Source: Schizochytrium sp. TIO01
Taxonomy: Eukaryota; Sar; Bigyra; Thraustochytrida; Thraustochytriidae
Length of the DNA stretch: 64,000 nt
NCBI GenBank assembly: GCA_004764695.1
Contig: SMSO01000025.1
Location: forward strand, 4,938,862 to 5,002,861
Direction: 5' to 3'
This document shows positions 38,328 to 53,751 of this stretch, in pieces. Each line of letters starts with the position of its first letter. Positions within the stretch are counted from its first letter, which is position 1. The notes beneath the pieces are model-generated. The model saw only the letters and a list, made by a program, of their open reading frames with translations, ran no database searches and was not told the origin of the DNA. Both the position numbers and the translations under genes were made by a program.

Positions 38328-40607
38328 TTAATTGAGCAGAGGCACATGCTCAAAAAGTTCAGCATAAGCAACCTTTGCGGCCTTCTCCGGGAGTGATTTA
38401 ATTGCCTCCTGCAGCGCAGGCGATTCAGGGGAAAAGTTGCCGGGTAAGCAACGATACAGAGAATCCCGGATTTCCTCTAAGCTGTTGTAATATTCTTCGA
38501 TTTCATTCTCAAACATGTCCTCCTCTTCTTCATCCTCGTCGACGGGCGCATCATCGGGCTCTTGTTCAGCGAGTTGGACCAAAGCACCTAGCAATTGCTT
38601 AAGAACAGTCTGCAAGACAGGTTGAAGGATGTCGGTGGGAGCGTAGGCCAGAGCACCAGCAAGCATGTATCCAAAATCCATCTCACCGCCCTCCTCACTC
38701 TCGTCATCGTCATCTTCACTAGCTTCGTCTTTTGCCTGGTCGTTACTCTCAGAAGTCTTCTCAGACAGGAGCTTGCACTGTGCAGCCATCACTTCCCAGG
38801 GCATTCCAGCTGGAGCCGGAGGAAATTTAAGAAGGTTCCACGCAACTCCAGCGGCGGCAGGCTCACGATTGGCGATCTTTTCGCTGAGAATTTCGGGTCC
38901 CAGAGCCTTGTGAAGAGCCTTAACTCCTTTCCGTAAGCTAGAGAATCTAAGCAATAGCTCATCATAGTCAGGCTCACCCCAACGCTTCACCAGCCAGACA
39001 GCCAAAAATTCAATCTCATCAGAGCCCAAAGATTTGGGGTCTTCTTCGTCACCGGCTTCCAATTCTTCTTCATCAGCCATGGTCTCAATCAATGTTTCAA
39101 GGTACTCAATGGGGGGATCAAGTCGCACGTTGATCTCTTGCGTGAGCTCACTGCCATCGTGCAGGAAGTATTTGCCGACGAACGAGGAACCCTCTTCCTC
39201 GTCCTCATCATCTTCGTCGTCAATTTCAAAACTGGTACCATCTTCGCTCATAAAGCGCATCTGGGCCGCCATATCGCGTTTGGTGTTGTTTTGCTTCTTC
39301 TTGTCACGTGCAGCCTGCTGAACAGACCTCTTCTGGGCACCAGTGGCACCCTTAGGCTCCTCCACGCGGCTCCAGACCTTGGGCACCTTGGGCGGCACAG
39401 CGCGGTCCAGCTCAGTCTTATCAATGGGATCGACAGAGGTCCATTGACGCATGGGCTCTTGCCATGTGGCTTCAGAGTCCTTCGAAGGAGGCATCATGTT
39501 GGCGCACGGTTTCTTCATGTCGCACTGAGTGCGAGAGACCTTGGAATCCCAGAATCCTACCATGAAGGTCAATCTTGCAGCTCCAGAAGCGGCCATGCCA
39601 AGTCGAGGCACGACACCATGTAGAAGGCGTCCATCAAATACTGCTAATCTGTTTCGTTGCGGATGCAGCAGCCAACCAGAGGTCTCCTCGAGGTCCTCGG
39701 CATTCTCATACTCGCGGTCTGTCACGAGCGTCGGCGCTGCTGACCCGACATCCACATAGAACACTGTGGAGAACACAGGGTGGTGCAAGCCATGTCCCGA
39801 CTGCAGCCTGTGCTCGTCGGCATCCCAATGAAGCTGGTGGCCGCTCATGGCATCGCGCTTGTGGACCCACCATTCAGCGTACTGGACGTCGGCGGGGACA
39901 CCTCCAAATGCGCTGCTATTGTCTCCCAGCGTCTTCTTCAGAGCCGGCCAAAGGTGATCTTTGATGAGAGCTTCCGCAGCTACCGTGGGAGTTTCATCCA
40001 GAGCAAAGGAGTGCGAGAAATATCCCGAGTCACCATACTTGTGTTCCGCCCAGTACGGTGCATCTGCATCGAAGTGCTTTGCAATGTCCTGCAAGAACTG
40101 CTCAGGGACCACCGCATCCACCGACCAGACCGGCGGTGCAAGGGACAATTCTTTTGGGAGACGGCTTGGCGAGTTCGCTGCGAAAACGCTCTCATGTAGC
40201 CGCCAAGAATATCCAAGGCGGCTCAAGTACGCGTCGGCGCGCCTTGGCTCGTCCCTTGCCAGAAGTGCCAAGGCCAGGAGGTATGCAGCATCTTCGTGTC
40301 CTGAGGACCCAGTCTTTGACGTAACTACGCGCTCCAGGTCGCAAAGAGCCGCATCGCTGTGCTGAGGCGCATAACGAAGCTTGAGCTCGGCCAGCAGCAC
40401 AGTGGCCTCGCCGCAAGCAGGGTCCTCACGGAGGGCCCGAAGACAGAGACGAGAAACACGTCCCCAACCGCGTCGGCCAAGAAGATCATCGTAGGTACGA
40501 GCGCGCTCCACGAGACGGCATGCACGAGCAGCACGGAGACGCTGCAAACGGGCGCGCTCCCGACGAGCGGAGTTGGGAAGAGTCGATGAGGCCTTGCGTT
40601 TCACCAT
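38328..40607 (-). CDS. 2-oxoglutarate/Fe(II)-dependent oxygenase with helical-repeat N-terminus
   Basis: A 759-aa protein. Residues about 1-155 are basic, then alpha-helical with TPR-like character (VSRLCLRALREDPACGEATVLLAELKL). The catalytic jelly-roll lies at about 160-355. HWDAD (260-264) supplies the HxD iron ligands His-260 and Asp-262, LLHGVVPR gives the distal His-330, and RLTFMVGFW (345-353) gives the 2-oxoglutarate-binding Arg. All three iron ligands are therefore present and activity is likely. Residues 375-540 are charged, with acidic runs. A C-terminal helical region (about 545-759) with long Glu/Asp tracts has no assigned domain. Substrates of related eukaryotic enzymes are protein prolines, lysines, histidines or nucleic acids, and none can be chosen here. 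The ATG at 40607 is the first in frame. Confidence 0.75.
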   Translation of the reverse strand: MVKRKASSTLPNSARRERARLQRLRAARACRLVERARTYDDLLGRRGWGRVSRLCLRALREDPACGEATVLLAELKLRYAPQHSDAALCDLERVVTSKTGSSGHEDAAYLLALALLARDEPRRADAYLSRLGYSWRLHESVFAANSPSRLPKELSLAPPVWSVDAVVPEQFLQDIAKHFDADAPYWAEHKYGDSGYFSHSFALDETPTVAAEALIKDHLWPALKKTLGDNSSAFGGVPADVQYAEWWVHKRDAMSGHQLHWDADEHRLQSGHGLHHPVFSTVFYVDVGSAAPTLVTDREYENAEDLEETSGWLLHPQRNRLAVFDGRLLHGVVPRLGMAASGAARLTFMVGFWDSKVSRTQCDMKKPCANMMPPSKDSEATWQEPMRQWTSVDPIDKTELDRAVPPKVPKVWSRVEEPKGATGAQKRSVQQAARDKKKQNNTKRDMAAQMRFMSEDGTSFEIDDEDDEDEEEGSSFVGKYFLHDGSELTQEINVRLDPPIEYLETLIETMADEEELEAGDEEDPKSLGSDEIEFLAVWLVKRWGEPDYDELLLRFSSLRKGVKALHKALGPEILSEKIANREPAAAGVAWNLLKFPPAPAGMPWEVMAAQCKLLSEKTSESNDQAKDEASEDDDDESEEGGEMDFGYMLAGALAYAPTDILQPVLQTVLKQLLGALVQLAEQEPDDAPVDEDEEEEDMFENEIEEYYNSLEEIRDSLYRCLPGNFSPESPALQEAIKSLPEKAAKVAYAELFEHVPLLN

Positions 40608-41758
40608 GTTATGTTGTGCGAGGAACTTCAGAAACAGCCACTTGCGAGCTTGTCAAGGAGGTGAAAGACCACGAGTGGTGGTTTCCACGAAGAGCAAGTT
40701 CGCACAGAGAGCTAGCACCTTAGACAGAGGTCCGCCAAACAGACAGACAATCAGTCGCCCAGTCGCAGAGCGAGAACTGGGTTCTGATCTGATGTCTCTG
40801 GGTTTTGTACACCAATGGATCCTCACTCTCTTCTTCATAGCGTAATGTATGGACGTTTCTACCACTACTCTAGAGGCTACTAGCTTTCGCTCCAAGGTGA
40901 GAAAAGAGACTTATAAAGAGGGCTATTCAATTCTGGAGATCTTGCTTTTGCTAATATGGAGGCTCCTCAATTGATAGGTTCTCAAAAATATTGTGGCTTT
41001 TGGGGCTAAAGGATTACATGTATGCACTCATGCAGGATTGGTGAGCGCGAGACAGGAGATAGACACGCCGTGCATAAAGAGCAGATATGAGGAGGCGCTG
41101 AATGGGCGACATGTGAGTGGAGGTGTTCTGGAAAAGTCCTGTCGCTAGTACTTGTCGGCACTCGCTATTATAGTTTTTGTCGAATTCTATTGCCTTTTCT
41201 TAAATGAGTTGAATGGGGCCTGTTCAAGATAATTTAAGCAATTGGAAGAAGTTGAAGGCCTTCAGAAGTACAGACAATCGTTCCCGACCACAAAATAACA
41301 AATAAGGCGAGTGAGAGACTTCCTGAGAATTTTATACAGCCTCATCATTTTGCTATTGCAAAATCAAACAGCAACAACAACAGTTTTATATAAGGGGTTG
41401 ATTCAGCTAAAGCAATGCAATATCATTGTAAAGGAGAAGGCGTTGATGAAGAAAGGAAAGATTAAAGTATTTCTCAATATCCGAAGACGGACCAGAACCA
41501 CTTGTCTCGAAAGATTAGATCTTGGTGTACAAATTTTGTTATATTTATATACTACATTTTGCTTACCTTAGACTAAATTAAAGGATATATTATCGCTATG
41601 GACCACACATGAAGAGAAAAGAGATTTATATTTACAAAAGTCCATCTCACTTAGATTTCAACCTGTAAAATCTGCACGGCTTGGATGTCCTACGGTGACT
41701 AAGTGGAGCTAAGACTCAATCGCGTATTTAAAACTAACTCACGACTCAATGACAATTA
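40608..41758. other. Intergenic region
   Basis: About 1.15 kb between the oxygenase start and the IS607-like remnant. The 300 bp next to the oxygenase is of balanced composition and likely promoter. The rest is AT-rich. No further piece of the mobile element was recognised here. Confidence 0.4.
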
Positions 41759-42060
41759 TTAAATCATGTCCTTGGATAGGTAGCGCAAAAGGACGCCTCC
41801 GGCAGCGTGAATATCACGATTGGCTACGTGCTTGCATTTTGGGAGGATACTTGAATACCTTTGGATGTCTCTCTGTCACTAGTCAGAGGTACTGAGTAGA
41901 GATCTTTTAAGTTAAATTCTAGAGCCAAAACAAACACACATGTGGATGTTCCGAGCTTGTCGTGGACGGTATCATTTGCATTGCATCGCTTGTAAGTGTA
42001 ATCCTCTCAGCAAATAACCAGTTCACATCGCTGGCAGAGGAAAAGATCGGCTTCGTGAAT
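41759..42060 (-). pseudogene. TnpB/Fanzor-like nuclease remnant, C-terminal end
   Basis: Broken minus-strand coding sequence. From 42060 a frame reads CELVIC, a TGA stop (42007-42009), then EDYTYKRCNAN and DKLGTS. This aligns with the TnpB zinc-finger entry (V-I-x-x-E-x-Y-T-S-K-x-C, then L-G-x-S), though the second zinc cysteine and following glycine are lost. Further on, PKVFKYPP (41841-41864) matches the K-V-F-x-C element. After a frameshift, KCKHVANRDIHAAGGVLLRY (26 codons, stop TAA at 41759-41761) matches the final C-x-x-C...(D)RDxNAARNxLL stretch that carries the last RuvC aspartate. Only about the last 100 residues of a roughly 400-residue protein remain. Such proteins are RNA-guided nucleases carried by IS605/IS607-type elements. 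This copy cannot be functional. Confidence 0.75.
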
Positions 42061-42170
42061 GAGCACTTGTCGGGAGCCAATGAATGAGGCATCTTTCGAG
42101 CTGTCTTGATTTTGATCCCACCTGATTAACTTGTTGAGGTCTCCAAAAATTTAGGCAAACACCGTAGTTT

Positions 42171-42443
42171 TCACAGAGCCAAAGTGCAAGCTGGCAGTGA
42201 ATCTCGGTAGTCCATTAGGGGACGCAAGTCCGGCCTGTTGAAGTCGACCCTTCTACCGAAGTCTTTGTAGACGATTGAGGTATCTGGATAGGCACGCTGG
42301 AGGTCACCAATCCGGCATTTGAAATTCCCTTGTTGCTTTGCGGAGGACACGATGGCGTAAGTAATGGTATGGTCAGTGCTGCGTTGCTTGCGGCCGTCGG
42401 AATAAATCGCAGCCACAGATGCCCTTAACGTCGCTACTTGCAT
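42171..42443 (-). pseudogene. IS607-family serine recombinase (TnpA) remnant
   Basis: A 90-codon minus-strand ORF that matches the resolvase domain of IS607 transposases. TITYAIVSSAKQQGNF corresponds to the catalytic strand Y-A-R-V-S-S-x-x-Q, with the second Ser as nucleophile and the usual Arg replaced by Ile. RIGDLQRAYPD corresponds to R/Q-I-x-x-L-x-x-x-Y-P. VYKDFGRRVDFNRPDLRPLM corresponds to D-I-G-S-G-L-N-F-x-R-x-G-L-x-x-L. The upstream TLRASVAAIYSDGRKQRSTD resembles a worn MerR-type helix-turn-helix wing (T-L-R-x-W...G-x-I...R-T). After the core, DYRDSLPA resembles the DRLAR element but comes too early, implying an internal deletion, and the frame stops at 42171. Substitutions at key residues and the truncation make it a pseudogene. 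Confidence 0.75.
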
Positions 42444-43268
42444 ATATGCGATTGCCTCCGAGGGAGCACTCGAAGGGGATTTGCCGAGGCGCCAAACCTC
42501 TGGTTGAAGTACTCTGATAGTTCGAGTTGACAGTTTGTTTCACTTGTAGTGTTCGGACCTCGTTCCTTGGCTATTCCATTTTTTTACCTTACCATCGCTC
42601 CTCAGCAAAGACCTGCATACTCACTATAACATCTATCATTCATATGGAGCAGTCGCTGCCATTTCGAGGTTGTGCAAGTCCCAACGTTTTCAATGCTGCA
42701 AAAGTCGCCTATTCGTTCACTGCGGCGCTTCTACAAGCTCGCCCCTGTGTTTGGTATTTCGGCGCCACCCTCCACCCTAGTGGCGGCCTAAGTGCCTCTA
42801 CGCGGTGAGTTTAGTATGGGCAAGATTTGTCGTCGTGGAGCACATCGAAGGAGAAGACTCATCGAAGAAGCAGAAGAGGCGTGGAGGGCTCTCTCGAGAG
42901 GCCTTCGGGCGGGAGGAGGGCAGAGGGAGGGCGACGCAGCAGAGGACACGTCACGTGAAATGAGGCGGGCGCAGAGAAGAGATGGCAGAATAACGGCGAA
43001 TGAGCGAGATGCGCGAAGTGAGAAGAAAGCGTTAGGCAAGGCAAGCGCCTCCCTCTTAGCACGCGATAAGTAAGTGGTAGGAGGTCTGGAGAGGCGCTCT
43101 TTCTCTATTTCCCACTTCAAAGATAAAGAGGAAATAACTTTAAGTTTGATGTTTTTACTTTATATTTCACTCATAGAGAGAGAGAGAGAGAGAGAGGTAG
43201 CTAAGAGCTGCCTACCTGTTTGGGTAGGGGTGGGGTAGTTTGCTAGAGAAGTCGAACTTGAACTTAAA

Positions 43269-43300
<32 letters not shown>

Positions 43301-43558
43301 GAGAAAGAGAGAAAGAAACAAACTTCTGAAGAAAAGGAATGTTTTGTGTTTCTGTCTAAGCACCCTAGTGCCCAGTCCTAGGGAGGCGGGTCTAGGGAAA
43401 TGCAGTAGAAGTGGCGTGTCATGCTAACGAGAAGAAGAAGAAGAAGAAGAAGAAGCACAGTGACAGAACATCGAGAGAAGAAAGAGCAGCGAGAAGCAAA
43501 CAGGCTTCTCCCCCCTCCACTTCTTTCAAGCCTCCGCTCTCCAATTCACTCTTACACG
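42444..43558. other. Upstream region of the DEAD-box gene
   Basis: About 1.1 kb. A GC-richer, purine-rich stretch (42790-43080) is followed by GA and GAAA microsatellites and an AAG repeat just before the helicase. It is probably promoter and 5' UTR. ORFs in 42788-43120 on both strands lack known domains. Confidence 0.45.
43174..43318. repeat. GA and GAAA microsatellites
   Basis: (GA)n at 43174-43196 and (GAAA)n grading into GAGAAA at 43267-43318, both purine-only on the plus strand, 240-380 bp before the helicase start. Confidence 0.9.
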
Positions 43559-45649
43559 ATGGATAGAGGCCGAGGCAGAGGCCGAGGCCGTGGCAGTGGC
43601 AGAAGCTTCGCTTCCAACGGAGGCGGCCGCTCTGGCCAGGGTCATGGTAACAACAACAATAACAACTACAACAACAGCAACAACAACAACAACCGCAGCA
43701 ATGGCAATAACAACTACAACAACAGCAACAACAGCAGCAACAACAATAGTGCCAGCAACGGCAATAGCAACGGGTACAGCAACGGGTACAGCAACAACAA
43801 CAACCATAACAATGGCAGTCGGAGCAATTCCCGCCACGGTACCAGCAACGGAGGAATGAGCCGCGACGCTCGCAAGGATGTGCGTCGCAAGCGGCAGGCT
43901 GCTGCTGTGCAGAAGAAGGCAGACGAGGAAACCGACTTCTTTTTCTCGTGCGTGCGCCGTGCACAGCGATTGCCTGCCTCCACCCCTCCTCTGAGCCAAG
44001 GTGGCAAGCCTCAGGGCCGTCAGAACCCTGTCCGTAAACCGCAGCGTTCCGAGGAGGCCGTTTTCGGTGCCAAGGCAATCTGCTCAGGCATTGACTTCAA
44101 TAAGTACGACGACATCCAGGTTGAGTGCAGCGCTTCCGATATTGTAGCCCTCGAGAGGTTTTCCGACGTCGCAGACGCCCTTGGGCCTGAGGTGCTGCGG
44201 TCTGTGGAGCGCATGAACTACGCCACGCCTACGCCTATTCAAAGGTATTCTATCCCAAGCGCTCTCAAAGGCCGCGACCTCATGTGCTCTGCGCAAACCG
44301 GCAGCGGTAAGACTGCATCTTTCCTGATCCCTACAATTGCTGGAATGCTGCGCTCTAAGGAGCTGATGGAACCCTCCGGAAGGCGGCCCGGCGAGGAGGG
44401 CGTTGTGCACCCCGCAGCAGTAGTGCTGGCGCCCACAAGAGAACTTGCTTCACAAATTGATGTAGAGGCTGCCAAGCTTTGCCACTGGACACCGATTGTT
44501 CCACTCTGTGTTTACGGAGGAGCACCCGCTCGGTCTCAACTCGAGGCACTCGCGCAGGCTGGACCACACCCCCTCCTACTCACCGCCACGCCAGGACGCC
44601 TCATCGACTTTGTGGACAGAGGCATCATTAAGCTCTCTGGGGTTGGATTCCTTGTACTCGACGAAGCAGACCGCATGCTCGATATGGGATTCGAGCCGCA
44701 GGTGCGCCAGATCGTACAGAAGAGGGACATGCCGCCCCCATCGAAGCGAGCTACCCTCATGTTTAGCGCAACCTTTCCCGAACCCATTCAGAAGTTGGCG
44801 ACAGACTTCCTGCGGCCAGGGTACACGTGGATCGCGGTGGGCGTCGTTGGGTCCACGACGAGTTCCATTACGCAGAGACTCTTGGAGTCTAGCATGGATC
44901 GCAACAAAAAGATGCAGCTGCTCGCAGAGCAGCTCCGCGAGATTGAGGGTCGTACCCTTGTCTTCGTGCGCATGAAGCGGTCAGCACATCAGGTGAAAAG
45001 ACGCCTTGAACGTGACTTCGACATCAAGGCTGGTGAAATTCATGGCGACCGCTCACAGGCACAGCGCGAAGCAGCGCTTGATTCCTTCCGTGATGGTAAG
45101 ATCGCTGTACTGATTGCCACAAATGTTGCTGCACGTGGACTTGATATCCCTAATGTTACCCACGTCGTTAACTTTGACTTGCCGACCGCAGAGGCTGATT
45201 TTCCGGATTACGTTCACCGTGTGGGACGCACAGGCCGTGCAGGCCACCGTGGTGTTGCCACGAGCTTTTACGTGCCAGGTTTTGACCCCAAGCAGGGCAA
45301 CGGCAAGATCGCTCCCATGTTGCTTCAATTCCTCGAGGACGCAGACCAGGAAATCCCGGAATGGTTCCTTGCGCTACCAGAGCTGAAAGGCGTTGGTGCT
45401 GCTAGAGCTCGAAGTGCTGCTGCGGGTCCTCCAAACCCGCCCGCGTCAGCAGAGAATAACTCGCGCAATGGCCATAACAACAATAACAACGGTAGTAATG
45501 GAGGCAGCCGGGGTGGCGGCCGAGGAGGCCGAGGAGGCCGTGGACGTGGCCGTGGTGGCCGTGGTGGATCTCAATCGCAGTTCCGCGATCATCGCCGAGG
45601 CGGCGGCGGCGGCCGTGGTGGCCATCGTCGTGAAGCCGCTACTGCATAA
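43559..45649 (+). CDS. Ded1/DDX3-like DEAD-box RNA helicase
   Basis: 696 aa from the ATG at 43559, which opens with MDRGRGRGRGRGSG like other Ded1/DDX3 proteins. An in-frame ATG at 43421 would add 46 residues, starting with poly-Arg coded by an AGA repeat, and is less likely. The core has every motif: the Q motif region YATPTPIQ, I AQTGSGKT, Ia PTRELA, Ib TPGR, II VLDEADRMLDMGF, III SATFP, V ATNVAARGLDIP and VI HRVGRTGRAG. The N-terminal tail holds a 65-residue Asn-rich tract with Tyr and Ser, from AAC/AAT repeats. The C-terminal tail is Asn-rich, then RGG-rich. Ded1/DDX3 unwinds mRNA leaders for translation initiation and condenses into granules, and the low-complexity tails fit that. A Vasa-like role is a less likely alternative. 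Confidence 0.93.
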   Translation: MDRGRGRGRGRGSGRSFASNGGGRSGQGHGNNNNNNYNNSNNNNNRSNGNNNYNNSNNSSNNNSASNGNSNGYSNGYSNNNNHNNGSRSNSRHGTSNGGMSRDARKDVRRKRQAAAVQKKADEETDFFFSCVRRAQRLPASTPPLSQGGKPQGRQNPVRKPQRSEEAVFGAKAICSGIDFNKYDDIQVECSASDIVALERFSDVADALGPEVLRSVERMNYATPTPIQRYSIPSALKGRDLMCSAQTGSGKTASFLIPTIAGMLRSKELMEPSGRRPGEEGVVHPAAVVLAPTRELASQIDVEAAKLCHWTPIVPLCVYGGAPARSQLEALAQAGPHPLLLTATPGRLIDFVDRGIIKLSGVGFLVLDEADRMLDMGFEPQVRQIVQKRDMPPPSKRATLMFSATFPEPIQKLATDFLRPGYTWIAVGVVGSTTSSITQRLLESSMDRNKKMQLLAEQLREIEGRTLVFVRMKRSAHQVKRRLERDFDIKAGEIHGDRSQAQREAALDSFRDGKIAVLIATNVAARGLDIPNVTHVVNFDLPTAEADFPDYVHRVGRTGRAGHRGVATSFYVPGFDPKQGNGKIAPMLLQFLEDADQEIPEWFLALPELKGVGAARARSAAAGPPNPPASAENNSRNGHNNNNNGSNGGSRGGGRGGRGGRGRGRGGRGGSQSQFRDHRRGGGGGRGGHRREAATA

Positions 45650-53604: not shown

Positions 53605-53751
<147 letters not shown>

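Follow-up and report, generated by a model that had tools for sequence, protein, structure and literature searches.

How did two short fragments, one resembling the core of an IS607 serine recombinase and the other the end of a TnpB-like nuclease, come to lie side by side and in the same orientation in the DNA of the thraustochytrid Schizochytrium sp. TIO01? Both are on the minus strand of the 64,000-nucleotide stretch that was analysed as a whole (the window). A sequence-only reading had taken them for the remains of an IS607 element in a protist nuclear genome, acquired by a past transfer, perhaps through a large DNA virus, and then reduced by a large deletion. To answer the question, the locus was compared with the rest of its own genome, with bacterial and viral sequences, and with published systems.

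The IS607-derived element of the window

A single IS607-derived element, in which the first part of tnpA is fused to the last part of tnpB, was found to fill positions 41,648 to 42,700 of the minus strand (1,053 bp counting both TG dinucleotides). Its limits were taken from an alignment of 21 short copies, from the positions at which these copies end, and from blastn of short copies against the window. The two fragments are therefore real IS607 remnants, as had been proposed, but the element to which they belong is larger and bears TG at both ends. All of its parts are read on the minus strand. The left TG (42,699-42,700), a presumed crossover site, precedes a decayed 5' portion of tnpA (42,210-42,579) comprising a MerR-like helix-turn-helix region and the first part of the serine recombinase domain, as recognized with NF033518 and by blastn against L019, an intact copy from the same genome; the tnpA start was set by eye at the ATG that corresponds to the first codon of the intact gene. 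Positions 516 and 1712 of L019 meet at the deletion junction (42,208-42,210), and about 1.2 kb is missing relative to the intact element. The decayed 3' portion of tnpB (41,759-42,208; PF07282 and blastn against L019) contains the last RuvC segment and the zinc finger through the stop codon. It is followed by a noncoding right end of about 110 bases (41,648-41,758), which right-end alignment and folds identify as a remnant of the omegaRNA/reRNA guide scaffold of intact relatives, and which closes with the right TG (41,648-41,649), again a presumed crossover site. An alignment gap also revealed a 74-bp secondary insertion at 41,869-41,942 (41,862-41,949 with repeats) between two copies of ACATCCA, the repeat being recognized by eye. 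The insertion was missing from all five short copies aligned to the window, was peculiar to the window copy among those compared, and is perhaps a small nested insertion with target duplication.

The profile matches of the element were modest and would be doubtful if taken alone. The frame at 42,171-42,539 (minus strand) matched NCBIfam NF033518 (IS607 transposase) with an E value of 8e-4 and 19 bits, far under the curated cut-off of 110 bits; the match of the TnpB frame (41,759-41,875, minus strand) to Pfam PF07282 (TNB) was weak (E = 0.055). Pfam and PDB searches with the recombinase fragment returned no meaningful match. It is DNA alignment that settles the identity. L019 aligned to the window in three blastn pieces at 72-78% identity (E down to 2e-36), which upholds the assignment to an IS607 element encoding a TnpA serine recombinase and then a TnpB/Fanzor-type nuclease, and other short copies aligned at 70-76% in the main pieces (E down to 3e-127). 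The DNA match to intact copies ruled out chance protein resemblance of the fragments. At the protein level, YAIVSSAKQ of the window pairs with YARVSSAKQ of the intact protein, EDYTYKRC with ESYTSKTC, and CKHVANRDIHAAGGVLLRYLSKDMI with CNHVADRDVHAARGILLRYLSKDMI.

That the decayed element resides in a eukaryotic genome was confirmed by eukaryotic 18S rRNA starts on several large contigs, including the window's own. These starts amount to 16 copies dispersed over many contigs, some deep in large ones, and form no single array. One neighbor of the element is a plus-strand frame with DEAD-box helicase domains (43,409-45,649); the other, on the opposite strand, is a long frame (38,328-40,652, minus strand) that had no Pfam match at 0.001. 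Elsewhere in the window, a perfect CTTT array of 35.5 units occupies positions 53,610-53,751.

Dispersed short copies and the shared junction

Three queries were run against the 64-Mb genome (37 contigs): the window element, copy L057 (right part only), and copy L048 in full; each search covered the best 40 loci of 214, 185, and 240 first-look candidates, respectively, and the resulting counts are lower bounds. Combined, the searches gave at least 70 distinct loci, and at least 46 distinct loci aligned through the same deletion junction. The junction was crossed in one alignment by 39 of the 40 best loci with the window query and by 37 of the 40 best loci with the L048 query. Two exceptions, C7:183590 (window query) and C31:4186879 (L048 query), end right at the junction position and behave as a longer element would, and C6:2347613 (L048 search) has a different internal structure.

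Base-by-base reading covered 21 of the 70 loci (20 fetched copies and the window). The middle stretch was missing relative to L019 in every one of them: the left piece ends at positions 472-524 of L019, and the right piece starts at 1708-1747 in 20 copies; in L047, which aligns weakly here, it starts at 2033. The junction letters are alike in all 21 aligned copies. These copies differ from their majority sequence by 11-20% (15% for the window copy), and their mean pairwise identity is 74%. Binned divergence was 11-19%, with two end bins higher; nothing in it pointed to selection on the retained right end, and it fits a single burst with neutral decay thereafter. Since the junction is shared by 21 copies of similar divergence, a single non-autonomous IS607 derivative arose, amplified, and died. 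The family thus combines, in the manner of MITEs, a common internal deletion, two kept ends, and many dispersed copies. Flanks of up to 1,500 bp per side differ between copies and have only short repeats in common, some of which are other short copies; large duplications were rejected as the origin of the short copies on the basis of these differing flanks.

The copies have a common origin, one deletion, many dispersed positions, matching ends, and intact relatives. We consider it highly probable that the window element is a dead member of an amplified non-autonomous IS607 family, the short form of which came from a single deletion and was mobilized in trans. By itself, the window copy looks as if a single autonomous IS607 element had inserted here and then lost its middle privately. 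The large deletion of the sequence-only reading did occur, at one junction, but it is not private to this copy: all 21 aligned copies, and at least 46 loci, have that junction, which contradicts such a history and leaves it extremely improbable. If many full-length copies had instead suffered the deletion separately at a common hot spot, for example through abortive gap repair, the short copies would be independent of one another. The loci that do not cross the junction (1 of the best 40 with the window query and 3 of 40 with L048), together with the other internal structure of C6:2347613, are in keeping with recurrence; the agreement of the junction letters to the base in 21 copies is not, and we regard recurrence as improbable. 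No flanking repeat that would guide a break at the junction was noted by eye.

Spread of the copies with integrated DNA of a large virus, rather than by transposition of their own, could be entertained because a 175-kb viral contig (L066), with a gene that we take to be TFIIB-like, encodes a relative at about 33%. In addition, IS607/Fanzor elements occur in large DNA viruses (PMC3627910). However, the flanks differ between copies, the window copy has a DEAD-box helicase gene on one side and a further long frame on the other, and the relatives are distant, all of which makes viral spread very improbable.

Full-length relatives and their nuclease

The same genome contains a younger sister family ending in AG. 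Among 20 loci read, tnpB was open over its full length, through the zinc finger, in 14 (tnpB frames of 615-682 amino acids stop to stop), and tnpA was intact (232 amino acids) in 9. Both genes were intact in eight (L019, L020, L024, L026, L028, L030, L032, and L033), and the expectation that relatives, intact ones included, exist elsewhere in the genome was borne out by these copies as well as by the dispersed loci above. The young copies are 88-99% identical to L019 over the main pieces; L035 is frameshifted near the tnpB 3' end, and L036 is truncated. TnpA of the intact relatives reached 145.6 bits against NF033518, above the cut-off of 110, as an IS607-type TnpA does, and matched Pfam Resolvase with an E value of 5e-20. 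In intact copies the tnpA and tnpB frames overlap, with tnpB downstream, and the remnants in the window stand in the same order.

Seven young copies (L022, L023, L025, L027, L031, L036, and L038) have one tnpA stop codon in common, a few bases ahead of the likely tnpB start, and tnpB is open in five of the seven. In five of the seven, a common insertion of about 295 bp with telomere-like CCTAA repeats also lies near the 5' end; these five are mutually 97.9-99.9% identical. The insertion-bearing copies seem to have multiplied after loss of a full tnpA, presumably in trans. The dN/dS ratio of tnpB was 0.35 over 15 copies, two of which (L035 and L036) are damaged at the 3' end, and 0.36 for the ten pairs among the five stopped-tnpA copies, the pairs being non-independent in both cases. 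The five stopped copies do not form one tnpB clade, L031 being nearer to L020, L032, and L033, and L024, with an intact tnpA, is near L022 and L025; therefore, given these caveats, selection cannot be pinned on the stopped copies.

A third type of relative was represented by L153, a decayed full-length element that shares 69% identity with L019 over 2.1 kb and as much as 73% with short copies. Its left end resembles theirs, CG stands before the left end, and there is no TG at the right end. We take L153 for a fossil of the lineage from which the short form came.

The intact nuclease of the young elements is 481-492 amino acids long, depending on the chosen start, and contains a helix-turn-helix (PF12323; E = 1e-9), DPG at 279-281 in RuvC-I, P375 in place of the usual TnpB RuvC-II glutamate, and a conserved E427 before YTSKTC, together with a four-cysteine finger and RD. 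In our reading of the alignment, E427 would be the relocated glutamate of Fanzor2. The combination of DPG and an alternative glutamate marks Fanzors and their bacterial kin (Yoon et al., PMC10711439), and it is this combination that the intact sister-family tnpB displays. The best PDB match was the mimivirus TnpB-like protein L79 (9b0l; E = 2e-10 with the single protein and 4e-54 with a profile). The intact relatives probably encode an RNA-guided DNA cutter of the Fanzor kind.

Outside this genome, the nearest relatives found were IS607-type TnpBs of cyanobacteria, of a cyanobacterial phage, and of a viral contig, at about 28-42% in local alignments. The best TnpB matches were at kept loci with names that we recognized as cyanobacterial in 79 of 80 cases, the exception being L141 (Caldilineales), although two of the three query rows were cyanobacterial and biased the search toward such matches. 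One relative is in a Microcoleus phage, and relatives of tnpA were present at 79 of 89 external loci. Like the protein studied here, the cyanobacterial TnpBs (pro-Fanzor) have DPG in RuvC-I (33 of 35 stop-free relatives), a proline for the usual RuvC-II glutamate (a pattern seen in 31 of 35), and a glutamate before the TSK.C motif (34 of 35); unlike it, they are bacterial, and only about 28-42% identical locally. When viral contigs were scanned with the intact nuclease and the intact recombinase as single proteins, no relative was found; an alignment-based scan gave seven loci. Such distant relatives name neither a donor nor a route of transfer, and the proposed passage through a large DNA virus finds no support in them.

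Ends, predicted guide RNA, and proposed mobilization

IS607 recombination leaves a characteristic mark: the two ends share a dinucleotide, and nothing is duplicated. This was the arrangement observed, without target-site duplication, for AG in young copies and for TG in the window copy. In the short family, TG was present at the left end in 10 of 21 copies, at the right end in 11 of 21, and at both ends in 5 of 21, the window copy among them, and in all 11 cases the host sequence past a right TG began with A or T. For the young family, 18 right ends were read; each was placed just after an AG, and A or T came next every time (2e-5 by base composition). By eye, CAG directly precedes the left end in 15 of 19 young copies (not in L019, L026, L030, or L037); a script applying a last-AG rule found C before AG in 10 of 15, a lower count because some copies carry two AGs. 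The crossover is apparently TG in the short family and AG in the young family, compared to the GG dinucleotide reported for studied IS607 members (PMC6188088, PMC10711439), and AG and TG would be family variants of the crossover dinucleotide.

One young element, L032, is nested in an old short element. When it was excised in silico (within one base of the dinucleotide), its flanks aligned across the site to L047 (joined positions 17-424, with the site at 400), and a single AG remains there by eye; this nesting rests on one short copy, L047, the other 20 stopping short or missing the site. The corresponding alignments for L026 and L035 did not cross the site. As a separate observation, at least 3 of 20 young elements (L026, L032, and L035) are located in an old short element or no more than about 300 bp from one.

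In most intact right ends the fold consists of three hairpins, the first long and the second short (L034 and L037 are exceptions), and the CUUAG loop of the short hairpin is able to pair with the last bases, CUAAG, as a predicted pseudoknot. Three stem-loops and a pseudoknot characterize IS607 TnpB guide RNAs and are predicted also for Fanzor2 (PMC10711439), and the young-family right end is predicted to fold like omegaRNA. The z score of the fold was -4.59 for L019, -1.92 for short copy L057, and -0.46, no better than chance, for the window, in which the fold is decayed. A right-end alignment took 26 of 39 ends (13 of 18 young and 13 of 21 short), leaving out L021, L023, L027, L032, and L035 as close to kept ones and L044, L045, L046, L047, L051, L052, L056, and L058 as truncated or badly aligned, a choice that therefore favors the structure. 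In these 26 ends, the named pairs form in 92.9% of cells versus 33-44% when slid by 1-3 columns. Both-side changes were found for 4 pairs versus 2.5 in shuffles, 102 of 500 of which reach 4; the percentage paired and the covariation score were reached by only 1 and 2 of 500 shuffles, respectively, an excess that relatedness alone can cause. From the same rows, RNAalifold predicted 13 pairs, arranged as two hairpins, without the second hairpin and the pseudoknot, which were named by eye. Thus, the fold of intact right ends is supported, and covariation is not.

The following course of events is consistent with these data. An IS607 element with a Fanzor2-type tnpB once lost about 1.2 kb, that is, the 3' part of tnpA and most of tnpB, while keeping its ends, and the short form now stands at dozens of loci, its copies decayed to a similar degree. 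The matching ends suggest that TnpA of full-length TG-type elements excised and inserted the short form in trans, presumably as a circle and by exchange between TG dinucleotides, after which the short family would have died. By homology, the guide RNA of the young-family nuclease is probably made up of the structured right end and the host sequence next to it; the nuclease may also cut the emptied site, which would favor copying the element back. By analogy with ISXfa1, for which a GGG motif is described for the GG crossover (PMC10711439), CAG would be expected beside the target. It is also conceivable, though rather unlikely, that the short copies parasitized the RNA-guided nuclease as well as the recombinase, their own right-end scaffold and a guide from their own flank directing a Fanzor made elsewhere to cut emptied sites and so keep the copies in place. 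If so, this would be a eukaryotic transposon family with a mobile unit of little more than two recombination ends and a guide RNA, and the lineage would have switched a target dinucleotide (TG versus AG) common to recombinase and nuclease.

Fanzor2 in eukaryotic IS607 elements has already been published, with Phytophthora among the hosts (PMC3627910). Like those elements, the ones described here encode a serine recombinase (tnpA) ahead of a Fanzor2-type tnpB, lack terminal inverted repeats, and have a structured right end (PMC3627910, PMC10711439); unlike them, the window element is a form that lost its interior and then multiplied. In this respect it resembles MITEs and other non-autonomous DNA transposons, where a derivative shortened by deletion retains its two ends but not its coding capacity and builds up dozens of copies. 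In contrast to MITEs, the short family shows no terminal inverted repeats or target duplication, because its enzyme is a serine recombinase, and its kept right end also encodes a guide-RNA scaffold. The titles and abstracts of the literature searched included no non-autonomous eukaryotic IS607 family, which does not prove its absence from print, and the same literature included no report of IS607 in thraustochytrids.

A young IS607-Fanzor2 family, with both genes intact at 8 of 20 loci read, thus coexists in one nuclear genome with an older full-length relative that has decayed and with a short family, now dead, of dozens of loci. These form a natural series, from both genes through a stopped tnpA with an open tnpB to neither gene but an RNA scaffold, in which to ask whether a Fanzor aids the persistence of its element in a eukaryote. 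The ends predict an AG crossover, with CAG as the likely motif beside the target. The young copies differ in the distance from AG to the conserved left end, and in L029 and L020 the right flank opens with the same bases that follow the left AG (about 11 in L029 and 3 in L020).
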